Positions 9,036 through 33,150 of a stretch of DNA of 33,784 nucleotides are shown here, one piece after another (position 1 is the stretch's first letter; every line of letters begins with the position of its first letter). The notes beneath the pieces are model-generated. The model was not told where the DNA came from and did no database searches. It worked only from the letters and a program-made list of their open reading frames with translations. This DNA is from an uncultured Lachnospiraceae bacterium. Its GTDB lineage: Bacteria > Bacillota > Clostridia > Lachnospirales > Lachnospiraceae. The DNA lies in NCBI GenBank assembly GCA_947179245.1, contig CAMXBD010000022.1, positions 1-33,784 on the forward strand, written 5' to 3'. The position numbers were made by a program, and so were the translations under genes.

Positions 9036-10934
9036 ATGAACGAAAACAAAGAGTTCAAACCGTATATTCCTGCGGAGAAGATTACGCCGGAATTTACGGT
9101 GACATCGATCATCATGGGAATCATCCTTGCAATCGTATTCGGTGCGGCTAATGCGTACCTTGGACTGCGTGTCGGTATGACTGTTTCCGCGTCCATTCCT
9201 GCGGCGGTTATTTCTATGGGTGTGATTCGTGTCATCATGAAGAAGAACTCCATTCTGGAGAGTAACATGGTTCAGACCATCGGTTCTGCTGGTGAGTCAC
9301 TGGCAGCAGGAGCGATCTTTACTATGCCCGCGTTGTTCCTGTGGGCGGAAGAGGGCTTGTGTGATATGCCGGGTCTTGTAGAAATCACGCTGATCGCGCT
9401 TTGCGGTGGTGTGCTGGGTGTACTGTTTATGATTCCGCTGCGTAACGCGCTGATCGTCAAAGAGCATGCGACGCTTCTGTATCCTGAAGGAACAGCCTGT
9501 GCGGAAGTGCTTCTTGCAGGTGAGGAGGGCGGTTCGAATGCGTCTACCGTATTCAGCGGTATGGGACTTGCAGCGATCTTTAAGTTCCTTGTAGATGGCA
9601 TTAAAGTTATTCCGGCGGATGTTGCAGCCGAGTTCCGTTCTTTCAAGGGAGAACTGGGTATGGAAGTTTATCCGGCGCTTCTCGGTGTAGGATATATCGT
9701 AGGACCGAGAATTGCATCTTATATGTTCGTAGGTTCACTGTTTGGGTGGATGGTGATCATTCCGCTGATCTGTCTGTTCGGCGCCAATACATGGATGTAT
9801 CCGGCGGATGTCGGCACAACGATTGGACAGCTCTATGAGGGAGGCGGTGCATCGGCAATCTGGGGTTCCTATGTGAGATATATCGGTGCGGGTGCGATTG
9901 CGACGGGAGGTATCATTTCTCTGATCAAATCTTTGCCGCTTATCGTTACTACTTTCAGAGATTCGATTAAGAGTATGAAAGGCAGCAAGAATACGAGTGA
10001 TGCCAGAACAGCACAGGATCTGCCTATGGGTGCAGTGCTGATAGGCATTGCGGCAATGGTTATTATTATCTGGCTTGTTCCGGCGATTCCTGTCAATATT
10101 TTAGGTGCACTGCTTATCGTGGTATTCGGTTTCTTCTTTGCAACTGTATCTTCACGTATGGTAGGTTTGATCGGAAGTTCCAACAATCCGGTGTCTGGTA
10201 TGGCGATCGCAACACTTTTGATTGCGACAATGGCGATTAAGGCAACTGGTGACAGCGGTATTACGGGTATGATGGGCGCTATCGCCATCGGATCGGTTAT
10301 CTGTATTATTGCAGCTATCGCCGGTGATACATCACAGGATTTAAAGACAGGCTTCCTGTTAGGCGCAACACCGAAAAAACAGCAGATCGGTGAGCTTATC
10401 GGCGTTGTTGCTTCGAGTCTTGCCATTGGTGGTGTCCTGTATCTGCTGAATGCGGCATGGGGCTATGGCGGAGCAGAAGTTCCCGCTCCTCAGGCGACAT
10501 TGATGAAGATGATCGTAGAGGGTATCATGGGCGGTGATCTTCCTTGGAATCTTGTATTTATCGGTGTATTTCTGGCACTTGGACTGGAGATTTTACGGAT
10601 TCCGGTTATGCCTTTTGCAATTGGTCTGTATCTGCCAATTTATTTAAATGCCAGCATTATGATTGGCGGCGTTGTCCGTATGGTTATGGATGGACGTAAG
10701 AAGGTAGACGAGAAGACGAAGGAACGTCAGGCAACCGACGGTACATTGTACTGTGCGGGTATGATTGCGGGTGAAGGACTGGTAGGTATTCTGCTTGCGA
10801 TTCTTGCAGTGGGCGGCATCACCATGGATTTGTCCGGTATGCTTAACCTTGGCAATATCGGCGGCGTTGTGCTGATGATCGTGATGATTCTGTGTCTTTT
10901 GAAGTTCTCCTTGTGGAAGAAGAGTAAGAACTGA
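9036..10934 (+). CDS. OPT-family oligopeptide transporter
   Basis: Integral membrane importer of the oligopeptide transporter (OPT) superfamily, which uses an ion gradient and not ATP. The 632 residues are nearly all hydrophobic segments, I estimate 14-16. The N terminus EKITPEFTVTSIIMGIILAIVFGAANAYLGLRVGMT and the segment YPEGTACAEVL are typical of the bacterial OPT branch (TIGR00733-like). Conserved small-residue stretches such as GSAGESLAAGAIFTMPA and IAGDTSQDLKTGFLLGATP also occur in this branch. Substrate cannot be read from sequence: members carry peptides or metal chelates. The stop codon shares its A with the next gene's ATG, so the PqqD-like protein is made in step with it. Confidence 0.93.
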   Translation: MNENKEFKPYIPAEKITPEFTVTSIIMGIILAIVFGAANAYLGLRVGMTVSASIPAAVISMGVIRVIMKKNSILESNMVQTIGSAGESLAAGAIFTMPALFLWAEEGLCDMPGLVEITLIALCGGVLGVLFMIPLRNALIVKEHATLLYPEGTACAEVLLAGEEGGSNASTVFSGMGLAAIFKFLVDGIKVIPADVAAEFRSFKGELGMEVYPALLGVGYIVGPRIASYMFVGSLFGWMVIIPLICLFGANTWMYPADVGTTIGQLYEGGGASAIWGSYVRYIGAGAIATGGIISLIKSLPLIVTTFRDSIKSMKGSKNTSDARTAQDLPMGAVLIGIAAMVIIIWLVPAIPVNILGALLIVVFGFFFATVSSRMVGLIGSSNNPVSGMAIATLLIATMAIKATGDSGITGMMGAIAIGSVICIIAAIAGDTSQDLKTGFLLGATPKKQQIGELIGVVASSLAIGGVLYLLNAAWGYGGAEVPAPQATLMKMIVEGIMGGDLPWNLVFIGVFLALGLEILRIPVMPFAIGLYLPIYLNASIMIGGVVRMVMDGRKKVDEKTKERQATDGTLYCAGMIAGEGLVGILLAILAVGGITMDLSGMLNLGNIGGVVLMIVMILCLLKFSLWKKSKN

Positions 10935-11281
10935 TGAAGAAGAAAAAGCAGCAGAAGAATTATCTTGATCTGATTCCGGAGCGGGCGCCGGAGCTTACGT
11001 GGAATCCCGATGAAGAGGGAATCATCATACTCGAAGTGGAGAATACGGGTGTATTCAACCGTATCGCACAGAAGCTTTTTAAAAGACCGAAATATACGAA
11101 GGTCCACATGGAGAAATATGGCAGTTTCTTATGGCCGTTGATCGATGGAGAACGGACGGTAATGGAACTTGCAGATCTCCAGAAAGCACAGTTCGGAGAG
11201 GAAGTTGAGCCTTTATACCCGCGGGTGGTGAAATATATGCAGATCATGGAGAGTTATCATTTTATTAAATTTAAAGAATAA
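10934..11281 (+). CDS. PqqD-like small protein
   Basis: A 115-residue soluble protein resembling the PqqD / RiPP recognition element fold. After a lysine-rich start (MKKKKQQKN) comes a beta-rich section (EGIIILEVENTGVFNRIAQKLF) and the PqqD-like core YGSFLWPLIDGERTVMELAD, then a helical tail ending FIKFKE. PqqD proteins bind leader peptides and hand them to radical SAM or other modifying enzymes, but no such enzyme or obvious precursor peptide is nearby. Its start overlaps the OPT transporter stop by one base, so a role with that transporter is the simplest inference. The family call is moderately secure; the function is unknown. Confidence 0.75.
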   Translation: MKKKKQQKNYLDLIPERAPELTWNPDEEGIIILEVENTGVFNRIAQKLFKRPKYTKVHMEKYGSFLWPLIDGERTVMELADLQKAQFGEEVEPLYPRVVKYMQIMESYHFIKFKE

Positions 11282-11311
11282 AAATATTAAATAGATAAGT
11301 ATTTATTAAGG

Positions 11312-11374
11312 TAGAACCCGGTCAGAACCTAAGGCGGATAAAACGTCTAAGGGACTGGCTGGGTTCTATTTTTT
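11312..11374 (+). terminator. Strong intrinsic terminator of the OPT-PqqD operon
   Basis: TAGAACCC (11312-11319) pairs with GGGTTCTA (11361-11368). The stem continues through GGTCAG/CTGGCT with one G-U pair, giving about 14 bp, and is followed by a run of six T. It lies 31 bases after the PqqD-like gene's stop codon. Confidence 0.9.
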
Positions 11375-11383
11375 GGCTTTTAG

Positions 11384-11692
11384 AAGATTTGGGTGGCAAA
11401 AGGTGCACCAATATATTTACATGGCAGATGGTACAAAATGTTCACTTGTGTCGGGCTTCGTCATATGGATTTTCTAAAATATTCCGGTAAAGCTGTGAAA
11501 ATAGACGTGACCGCCCTCTACAAGCCATCCGGGCTTGGTTCGGGCTTTTCGGGACATCCATGTCCCTCAATCACTGTTTCGTAGACGGAATATTAAGAAA
11601 ATCTCATATGCCCGCGCATGACAACTTCGTGAACATTTTGTACCATCTGCCCATCTCAATATATAGACTGCACCTTTTGACACCCAAATCTT
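11384..11692. repeat. 309-bp palindromic non-coding element (MITE-like or structured RNA)
   Basis: Two arms of about 105 nt (11384-11486 and 11586-11692) are imperfect inverted copies. The outer 12 bases are identical (AAGATTTGGGTG / CACCCAAATCTT). After one mismatch pairing resumes through CAAAAGGTGCA. A 23-bp block is perfect (11423-11445 with 11629-11651), and the inner ends match as AATATTCCG/CGGAATATT. The 99-nt core holds further hairpins: CAAGCC/GGCTTG (521-526 with 532-537 past 11000) and GGGACA/TGTCCC (11551-11556, 11561-11566). Weakly matched bulges lie between the paired blocks. There is no transposase. Flanking TA dinucleotides are suggestive but are not an exact duplication. It could be a miniature inverted-repeat element, an IS remnant, or the gene of a large folded RNA. 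Confidence 0.8.
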
Positions 11693-11860
11693 TATAGGAA
11701 GATGCCAGAATAAACAGAAAACTAAAAAAAAGATACCAAACTAACAAAAGACACCTTAAATCACTTCTCCTGTTTTACTAGAATTGAAGAAAATGTTCGT
11801 ATTGGAATTGAGAGCAAATGGGTCGTACAACAATAAACGAAACGGAGAAGGAGATCAGGT
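11693..11860 (+). promoter_or_regulatory. Leader and probable promoter of the sugar operon
   Basis: AT-rich spacer between the palindromic element and the first phosphorylase gene. The best promoter-like pair is TTGGAA (11802-11807) and TACAAC (11826-11831) with 18 bases between, which is weak and would suit an activator-dependent promoter. A good ribosome binding site (GGAGAAGGAG, 11844-11853) precedes the ATG at 11861. I found no convincing catabolite-repression (cre) palindrome and cannot identify the YesN-type regulator's site. Confidence 0.35.
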
Positions 11861-14605
11861 ATGAAAGGTTATCATTTTTTGGATGAGCAGGGAACTTTTG
11901 AACTGGATATGTCGGAAAATTACAGCTATCAGTATTTTCCGGTGGCGGGTGAGAAAGGAATCAAAAGTGCGCTGACGCCTAATTTCGGAGGGGACAGTAA
12001 ACGAAACCAGAATGAATTTTTGTTGGAGCCGGTCAGTGTGGAGAACTTACATAATAACCGTTCTACCAGAAATTTCTGGTGCCATATAGAGGGGAGAGGA
12101 AACTGGTCAGTGACAGGTGCATCGGCACAGGCGGAGCAGACCAGATTCACAGATGCTCAGGATAAGAGCAAGATGACGGCTGGACTGATGTGGCAGAGCG
12201 TTTCGCGGATTTCTTCTGAATATCAGATGGAGGCGCAAGTAACCTCTTTTGTGCCAATAGATCATGATGTGGAGATCATGTATGTGGAATTGACAAACTG
12301 TGGCAAAGAGCAAATCGAATTTGTACCGACAGCTGCCATTCCTATTTATGGAAGAAGCGCTGATAATATCCGGGATCACAGACACGTAACTTCATTGCTG
12401 CACCGCATCCGGATAAGAGAAGAAGGGGTGCTGGTCATGCCCACACTTTCCTTCGATGAGCGGGGTCATCAGACCAATAAGGTCTGCTATTATGTCTGCG
12501 GAGTAACGGATGATGGCAGTACACCGGAAGCTTTTTATCCGACAACAGAAGAGTTTATCGGAGAGGGCGGCAGCTATACCGCTCCACGAGCTGTGATTGA
12601 GAATTATCCGGGTGTTCCGGCAAAAGGATGTATAGACGGTAAGGAGGCAATGGGAGGTCTGAAATTTGCGACAACTGTATTATTGCCGGGGGAACACACT
12701 TCCTTTACCATTCTGCTGGGAGCGACCGAAAATCCGGAGGAAATAACGGAGATTGTAAATGCGTACCGGACAGCGGAGCAGACGGAAAGTGCATTTACGA
12801 AGACGAAAGACTATTGGCAGGAGAAGGTAAACATCGCTTACCATACCGGCAGCAAGGAATTTGATAATTTTATGCGCTGGGTAAGTTTCCAGCCAATTTT
12901 ACGAAGAATATACGGTTGTTCTTTTCTGCCTCATCATGATTACGGCAAAGGAGGACGAGGCTGGCGCGATCTGTGGCAGGATTGTCTGGCGCTCCTGTTG
13001 ATGAGCCCGGAGGGAGTGCGGCAGATGCTTCTTGATAATTACGGTGGAGTGCGTATGGATGGGACAAACGCTACGATTATTGGCGCGAAACAGGGGGAGT
13101 TTATTGCTGATAGAAATAACATTACGCGGGTATGGATGGATCATGGCGTCTGGCCTTTTATGACTACCAAGCTGTATATGGACCAGACCGGAGATGTGGA
13201 GATCCTTGAGAAAAAGGTGCCTTATTTCAAAGACAGACAGGCGGAACGCGGAACTTCTATAGATGAACAGTGGAATGATGAATACGGCAATTGCCAGAAA
13301 GATGCTAAAGGAAATGTTTACTACGGAACGGTATTGGAGCATTTATTACTGCAGAATTTATGTGCCTTCTATGAAGTCGGCGGGCACAATCACTGCAGAT
13401 TACGCGGTGCGGACTGGAATGATGCACTGGATATGGCTCAGGAGCAGGGCGAAAGTGTTGCATTTACGAATGCCTATGCCGGCAACTTACGGCAGCTTGC
13501 GGAATATATACTGTTTTATGCAGAGAAGACAGGAAAAACACAAGTATCTATCGCGGAGGAAATGCAGTGTCTGCTGGGTATAGGCAAGGAGAAATATGAC
13601 AGCCGGGATGAGAAGAATCAGATACTTGTGCAATACACCAAATCCTGCCGGCATACCGTTAGCGGCAAGACGGTTTCTATAGAGATAAATGGACTTGTCC
13701 GGGATTTGCAGGAAAAAGCCGATTGGATGATGAACCATATCCGGCAGAGTGAATGGGTAACGGATCAGGCGCAAAACGGATGGTTTAACGGCTATTACGA
13801 CAATCATGGCAGACAGGTAGAGGGAGTAAACAAGGAAGGGGTGCGCATGATGCTGACCAGTCAGGTCTTTGCTATCATGGGTGGTACGGCGACAAATGAA
13901 CAGATTCGCAGTATCACAAAGAGCGCAGATAAGTATTTGTATGATAAACATATCGGTGGATACCGGCTGAACACTGATTTCCATGAACTTAAGACAGACT
14001 TAGGAAGAATGTTCGGTTTCGCCTATGGTGAAAAAGAAAACGGTGCGGTCTTCTCTCACATGGCGGTTATGTATGCGAATGCACTGTATCAGAGAGGATT
14101 TGCAAAAGAAGGATACAAGGCGTTACAGACTTTGGCGGATACGGCAATGGAGTTTGAGACGAGTAAAATATATCCCGGCATTCCTGAGTACTTTAACGCG
14201 AAAGGACGGGGAATGTATCATTATCTGACCGGAGCCGCAAGCTGGTATATGCTGACTTTTCTGACAGAAGTATTCGGTGTCAGAGGGAGGGAGGGCGATT
14301 TAGAGATTGCTCCGGCACTTATGGGTGAACAGTTTGATGAGACAGGCAAAGCCAGAGTGGAACTGCCCTTTGCAGACAGGAGGTTCCACATTGTAATAGA
14401 AAATCCTCAGAAATTACAGTATGGAGAGTACCGTATCAGATCGGCGGTCATGGAGGATTACACATTGCCTCTTATGGAAGAAGTAAATGAGGAGGGGCAG
14501 ACAGCGGTCAGGGCAGTATTAGAGAGAGCAGTGATCGAACGGCTTTCCGGAGAAGTACATACAATAGAAATTTTGCTGGATGCGCAAGAAGGAGGTTTGT
14601 CATGA
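11861..14605 (+). CDS. GH94 disaccharide phosphorylase, probably laminaribiose type
   Basis: Cytoplasmic inverting phosphorylase of glycoside hydrolase family 94, expected to split a beta-linked glucose disaccharide with phosphate into alpha-glucose-1-phosphate and glucose. The N-terminal half is the beta-sandwich domain ([27 protein letters not shown]). The (alpha/alpha)6 barrel carries [32 protein letters not shown], and [22 protein letters not shown], with the general-acid Asp-Trp-Asn-Asp motif near residue 521. The 914-residue length exceeds cellobiose and chitobiose phosphorylases (about 800-820) and is close to what I recall for characterised laminaribiose phosphorylases (about 910), hence the call. 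Linkage specificity is inference: cellodextrin or sophorose activity is possible. Its last four bases (ATGA) overlap the next gene. Confidence 0.85.
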
Positions 14606-32876: not shown

Positions 32877-33150
32877 AGAAACTTAACAGATTGAATACAA
32901 TAAATATGGACATTGAAAGGGAAGAGTACTTTTATCAGAAGCAGCCAGAGAGGAACCGTCGTCGGCTGAAAGCGGTTTTTGTGGAGAGAAAGGGAAGTGC
33001 GCCCCGGAGTCCGGCTTATGCCCCGGCTGACCCCGTTATAGGTTATGAGTGAAAGAATGCTGTCATAGGCGTTCTTTAAGTAGAGTGGAACCGCGGATTA
33101 TTTCGTCTCTATTTCCGAACCGGAGTAGAGTGGATGCCGCGGCGTTTTTT
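32877..33150 (+). ncRNA. T-box riboswitch, probably cysteine-specific
   Basis: tRNA-sensing leader upstream of serine acetyltransferase. Stem I includes the AGAGAGG bulge (32947-32953) and the distal loop GGCTGAAAGCGG (32963-32974). A candidate specifier codon TGC (Cys) lies at 32998-33000 after AGGGAAG. Stem III is AAAGAATGCT (33052-33061) with GGCGTTCTTT (33068-33077). The T-box itself, AGAGTGGAACCGCGG, is at 33082-33096. Uncharged tRNA would stabilise the antiterminator and allow cysE transcription. The 415-base gap between the hydrolase and cysE is almost wholly this element. The specifier is my reading of the 3' side of stem I and was not folded computationally. Confidence 0.92.
33091..33150 (+). 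terminator. T-box terminator hairpin
   Basis: CCGCGG (33091-33096), inside the T-box sequence, pairs with CCGCGG (33137-33142). CTCTA (33107-33111) pairs with TAGAG (33126-33130), closing on TTCC/GGAG. Six T follow at 33145-33150. The 5' arm is shared with the antiterminator, so the two structures exclude each other. Confidence 0.8.

Follow-up and report, generated by a model that had tools for sequence, protein, structure and literature searches.

A MITE-like element of the Lachnospiraceae that carries the TwoAYGGAY RNA, with CsrA as a candidate partner

The protein CsrA regulates motility and the use of carbon. The RNAs CsrB, CsrC, RsmY, and RsmZ contain many GGA hairpins and come from one or two genes. 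According to a review, the CsrA site obtained by SELEX is RUACARGGAUGU, which is presented mostly in hexaloops with the AC and GU paired, and the known CsrA antagonist in B. subtilis is a protein, FliW (PMC7652899). Another candidate for an interaction with CsrA is the RNA family TwoAYGGAY (RF01731), which was described in 2010 and which a table row of that paper rates as probably an RNA and probably not cis-regulatory (PMC2864571). A paper of December 2014 proposed that TwoAYGGAY is a CsrA-binding sRNA of Clostridia (PMC4333381). In Rfam, the type assigned to the family is Cis-reg. Both the family and the idea of its binding to CsrA are already published, the latter by Gardner and Eldai.

The window considered here, i.e., the whole stretch of 33,784 nt that was analysed, contains a palindrome at 11384–11692, between the plus-strand ORFs 10934–11281 and 11861–14605. 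The earlier note on this DNA described an imperfect inverted repeat with a perfect 23-bp block, and this description is borne out: the blocks 11423–11445 and 11629–11651 are complementary at 23 of 23 positions, and the outer blocks 11384–11407 and 11669–11692 (24 nt) at 96% of theirs. When folded as RNA, the 309 nt reach −141.9 kcal/mol, as compared with a mean of −72.2 (sd 5.0) in 100 dinucleotide shuffles of the same 309 nt, none of which folded as well (z −14.0). The position given in that note also stands, except that the comparison of copies sets the ends of the element two bases further in, at 11386–11690. No ORF of 80 or more amino acids overlaps 11384–11692, in agreement with the statement that no coding function is evident, and a candidate function is offered by the published CsrA hypothesis for RF01731. 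The note could name no ncRNA family, and here it has to be corrected: the minus strand of the core matches RF01731 of Rfam 15 from end to end (Table 1). A microRNA match, MIR9486, on the neighbouring hairpin at 11306–11373 was rejected since its score of 23.7 bits is far too low against a gathering threshold of 100. Elsewhere in the window, a T-box leader (RF00230) is found at 32904–33113 on the plus strand (104.6 bits; gathering 93).

Table 1. Coordinates of the element and of its parts in the window.
Feature	Position	Strand	Basis
Whole MITE-like element, near-palindromic, 305 bp	11386..11690		Ends from alignment of copies; GATTTGGGTGGCAAAAGG ... CCTTTTGACACCCAAATC
Terminal inverted repeat, left	11386..11403	+	Family consensus GATTCGGGTGTCAAAAGG
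Terminal inverted repeat, right	11673..11690	-	Family consensus GATTCGGGTGTCAAAAGG
TwoAYGGAY RNA (RF01731)	11453..11619	-	All 168 model positions (1–168); 95.8 bits vs. gathering 43
Hairpin 1, GGGACAUGGAUGUCCC	11551..11566	-	Sequence, alignment; CsrA SELEX form ACARGGAUGU, U for R
Hairpin 2, CAAGCCCGGAUGGCUUG	11521..11537	-	Sequence, alignment; GGA in five-base loop CGGAU
Left flanking 7-mer TTTAGAA, target-duplication remnant	11379..11385		5/7 match to right 7-mer
Right flanking 7-mer TTTATAG, target-duplication remnant	11691..11697		5/7 match to left 7-mer

The core shares with the described family the match to the whole model, the fold, the GGA hairpins, and the Lachnospiraceae hosts. It differs in two respects. 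Firstly, the Rfam model ends inside the arms, whereas here the palindrome around the RNA extends further and has the ends of a transposon; secondly, the first loop of the window copy, AUGGAU, agrees with AYGGAY, whereas the second, CGGAU, is one base shorter. Among 87 cores, GGA is present in both loops in 79, in one loop in seven, and in neither in one, and ACANGGANGU occurs exactly in hairpin 1 of 56. Thirty-eight cores, one per genome (38 of the 39 genomes then represented), were aligned on sequence alone, and RNAalifold predicted 31 pairs, 30 of which show two-sided compensatory changes; pairing holds in 94.4% of the cells. Covariation scores 0.598, whereas 500 shuffles average 0.175 (sd 0.010) and never reach that value, and sliding the partner columns by one to three positions lowers the paired share to 36–51%. 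Near-invariant columns also occur beyond the loops, e.g., the AG before hairpin 1. The fold of the core RNA is under selection, a conclusion that we hold with very high confidence.

The source genome, a 3.4-Mb assembly in 233 contigs with 87.6% completeness, contains 11 RF01731 matches above threshold, on 11 contigs; the ten other copies are 74–81% identical to that of the window by blastn, and the flanks of the 11 copies are unrelated to one another. In the genus, 14 of 25 genomes contain a match, with 1 to 17 matches per carrier, and none was found in 16 genomes from other families of the order. In a sample of the family, which was scanned under more stringent filters and with six candidates scored in each genome (copy numbers there are therefore lower bounds), 65 of 397 genomes had matches, 63 of them above the cut-off. 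When the named GTDB contigs were scanned with a pattern, at least 119 stretches were returned; among the 80 matches listed, 78 are on contigs with names of the type Lachnospiraceae bacterium, Roseburia, Agathobacter, Lachnospira, Hespellia, Eubacterium, or, in one case, Clostridia, and the other two of the 80, in Planctomycetaceae and Myxococcales, are probably due to chance. The phage and plasmid records that were searched contain no match to the element.

What disperses these copies is indicated by their ends. The copies run past the Rfam model into complementary arms that end in GATTCGGGTGTCAAAAGG, and the ends are common to several genera even though the arms differ between genera. With up to two mismatches allowed, this end pattern occurs 72 times in genome G216, 40 times in G406, 17 times in G010, and 14 times in the source genome; it is present in nine of the ten genomes tried, as against none of the ten for the reversed pattern. 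A target duplication of 7 bp is evident at the level of the family. In the 25 elements that have both ends (out of 88 examined), the identity of the flanking 7-mers is 0.60, compared with 0.41 (sd 0.04) when flanks are reassorted (0 of 5000 as high), and seven of the 25 pairs are perfect; the other widths from 3 to 12 are unremarkable, the next best being 10 (85 of 5000). Shorter elements that lack the core (n = 26) give the same result, and for width 7 only (0.70 versus 0.45; 0 of 3000; eight perfect). An apparent duplication of 9 bp was discarded, since it becomes 7 bp once one base per end is counted as part of the element, with which the 26 other elements agree. The 7-mers of the window copy itself agree at five of seven positions.

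Sites without the insertion were also found. In 77 genomes of the genus, with few candidates scored per genome, relatives are uninterrupted at the sites of at least six of nine own copies; for the window copy and the loci L012 and L015, no relative among the matches listed crosses the site. The six uninterrupted sites were confirmed by flank-joined alignment (74–87% identity). In two of them, the single target can be read: CTGTGAT in the relative, with CTATGAG and TCATGAT beside the element (L010), and CTAGAAC in the relative, with TTCTAAT and CTAAAAC beside the element (L019). In the alignments of the remaining four, the junction or its vicinity contains small gaps.

Core-less elements with both ends measure 73, 79, 87, 102–106, 121, 159, 181, 184, or 203 bp. 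The source genome has three core-less remnants (on contigs C9, C134, and C4), none of which matches RF01731. Transposition thus does not depend on the core, these derivatives sharing both the ends and the 7-bp duplication of the full elements. In G216 and G406 (loci L297–L335), nested core-less sizes recur, as if the centre of the palindrome had been lost stepwise. Paired ends in 398 loci fall into the core-less classes and a class of 290–319 bp, plus one pair near 40 bp, and none of the pairs exceeds 450 bp. No transposase or long element with GATTCGGGTGTCAAAAGG ends was detected in these draft assemblies, either with the end pattern, in the surroundings of 20 ends that seemed single or stood at the end of a contig, in the ORFs of three of the latter loci (inspected by eye rather than by a family search), or in the 398 loci.

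With its 305 bp, its lack of an ORF of 80 or more amino acids, and its terminal inverted repeats shared with other copies, the element fits the description of a MITE, and the stretch 11386–11690 is almost certainly a copy of a mobile, MITE-like element carrying RF01731. In the earlier note, the palindrome was said to fit a MITE or else a selected RNA fold, and the checks named were the presence of copies at many loci in related genomes, a target duplication, and compensatory changes. All three were found, the duplication at the level of the family. Given the dispersed copies, the 7-bp duplication, and the uninterrupted sites on the one hand and the covariation on the other, both options hold together, and only the "either/or" has to be given up.

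The element resembles other bacterial MITEs in its size, its lack of ORFs, its terminal repeats, its target duplication, its internal-deletion derivatives, and its many copies. It differs in that its centre holds an RNA with wide conservation and covariation, in its duplication of 7 bp, and in the lack of a cognate transposase in the loci searched. The link between vehicle and RNA has a limit: both ends are recognisable, within six mismatches, in 28 of the 87 cores, and the arms differ in G355, G347, and G359, so the vehicle is established for part of the family only. At L134–L137 (G355), L144–L147 (G347), and L384 (G359), long arms of other sequence occur without GATTCGGGTGTC ends; these copies may have other vehicles, or their ends may have diverged past recognition.

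The orientation of the insertions was compared with that of the neighbouring genes. Of the neighbouring genes that could be called, 32 of 51 upstream and 35 of 56 downstream lie on the strand opposite to the RNA, a weak bias that rests on heuristic ORF calls at 85 of 95 prepared loci, many genes being uncalled. At these 85 loci, the RNA strand has both neighbours antisense to it in 18 copies and both on its own strand in eight, again a weak difference; sense insertions may be selected against. A promoter scan of the 33,784-nt window found nothing above chance. Read outwards (e.g., 11673–11690), the terminal repeat contains TTGACA, a −35-like hexamer (CCTTTTGACACCC), so insertions might form hybrid promoters with flanking −10 sequences. 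In 11 of the 17 G010 copies of the TwoAYGGAY element, a second palindromic repeat adjoins the element on its upstream side and has the same orientation; this repeat is 160 bp long (L118:778–937, minus strand), with hairpins of its own and no Rfam match. It has 39 matches in G010 and 18 in G016, and none in G100, G012, or G216; it may belong to a composite element, or be another MITE with a preference for the same sites. The upstream flank of L016 contains, by eye, a relative of this repeat, which blastn did not confirm.

A mechanism can be proposed on this basis. A transposase supplied in trans would recognise the GATTCGGGTGTCAAAAGG ends and would insert the element into A+T-rich targets resembling CTATAAG, with duplication of 7 bp, a behaviour that the statistics and the relatives lacking the insertion demonstrate at the level of the family. 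The centre of the near-palindrome encodes the TwoAYGGAY RNA on the minus strand, which would be transcribed from a neighbouring or hybrid promoter. The arms, if transcribed, would form a long stem presenting the two GGA-loop hairpins, the fold of which is shown by covariation. These hairpins would most likely bind CsrA, as has been suggested in print, and the dispersed copies would then either act jointly as a CsrA decoy or put CsrA-binding hairpins into host transcripts.

The candidacy of CsrA is based on the hairpins and on the distribution of the hosts. Hairpin 1 of the window copy has the SELEX form, with U where a purine (R) precedes GGA. The source genome has csrA (C107:4177–4332), and csrA is present in 62 of the 65 carriers as compared with 148 of 332 non-carriers (Fisher p = 4e-16, kinship being uncontrolled). 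Flagellin fits equally well, since it is present in 64 of the 65 carriers, and csrA and flagellin occur together in 206 genomes; the association with csrA is inseparable from one with flagella. Two of the carriers without csrA, G398 and G208, are drafts (91–93% complete) in which flagellin is present. The third, G359, is a one-contig genome that matches neither csrA nor flagellin; in its only copy of the RNA, GGA is intact in both loops. Because of this confounding and of G359, CsrA as the binding partner of the two hairpins is a guess that could equally well prove right or wrong. Titration of CsrA as the effect of the RNA is a more tentative proposal. It is a shade more speculative that in gut Lachnospiraceae the element spreads CsrA decoys by multiplying a conserved CsrA-binding RNA as it jumps, that its copy number tunes motility against metabolism, and that hosts keep the copies for this reason.

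One alternative explanation, which we consider rather unlikely, is that the MITE is purely selfish and that the fold and the GGA loops serve the element itself, e.g., as a hairpin for the transposase or a host factor, rather than CsrA. Mobility is, after all, the best-supported property of the element, and G359 retains the GGA loops without csrA. Moreover, in 28 of the 87 cores, those with both ends within six mismatches, the mean energy of the arm duplex is −43.8 kcal/mol with the arm's own partner, −36.6 with other copies of the same genome, and −22.8 with copies of other genomes, and in 24 of the 28 no foreign partner pairs as well as the own one; a hairpin correction at the level of the DNA could also give this result. 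The dispensability of the core in the derivatives of 73–203 bp is difficult to reconcile with this explanation, since a covarying core has been kept in 38 genomes.

Another possibility, to which we give a lower probability, is a functional RNA that is borne by the MITE and that has some other partner, a protein or a ligand. The conserved fold and the columns beyond the loops that hardly vary, such as the AG mentioned above, would be in keeping with such a partner, as would the confounding of csrA with motility; hairpin 1 nevertheless has the CsrA SELEX form, and two GGA hairpins separated by about 29 nt would suit a dimer. A non-mobile, chromosomal regulatory RNA with copies made by ordinary duplication would agree with the Cis-reg type in Rfam and is very improbable in view of the 11 unrelated flanks, the 7-bp duplications, the uninterrupted sites, and the derivatives that have the ends alone in common, in addition to which the table row of 2010 rates TwoAYGGAY as probably not cis-regulatory (PMC2864571). 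Finally, a palindrome that occurs only once, lacks relatives and function, and is decaying, which the earlier note would have accepted had there been no second copy, no covariation, and no transcript, can be dismissed despite the age of the source-genome copies (the ten others being 74–81% identical to that of the window), given 11 matches in the genome, matches in 65 of 397 family genomes, and covariation at 30 of 31 pairs.

The explanation that we prefer, a MITE of the Lachnospiraceae carrying the TwoAYGGAY RNA, which most likely binds CsrA, is probable as a whole. If compared with CsrB, CsrC, RsmY, and RsmZ, the RNA has in common with them the GGA in hairpin loops, with hairpin 1 of the SELEX form, and differs from them in having two GGA hairpins per copy, dispersed mobile copies, and Clostridia as hosts. 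The part of the literature that was searched yielded no published report of the MITE vehicle of TwoAYGGAY, i.e., of its ends, duplication length, size classes, or empty sites.

Since its description in 2010, no function has been established for the TwoAYGGAY RNA family. That it travels in a transposable element explains why its copies are dispersed and have no fixed gene neighbourhood, and this mobility is a warning against expecting its function to be read from the gene context. The guess about CsrA is also sharpened into a question, namely, whether a mobile element carries an RNA that titrates a motility regulator in many gut commensals. If the decoy reading is true, TwoAYGGAY would be a regulatory RNA family for which a MITE serves as the gene, and the Clostridia would have an RNA antagonist of CsrA.
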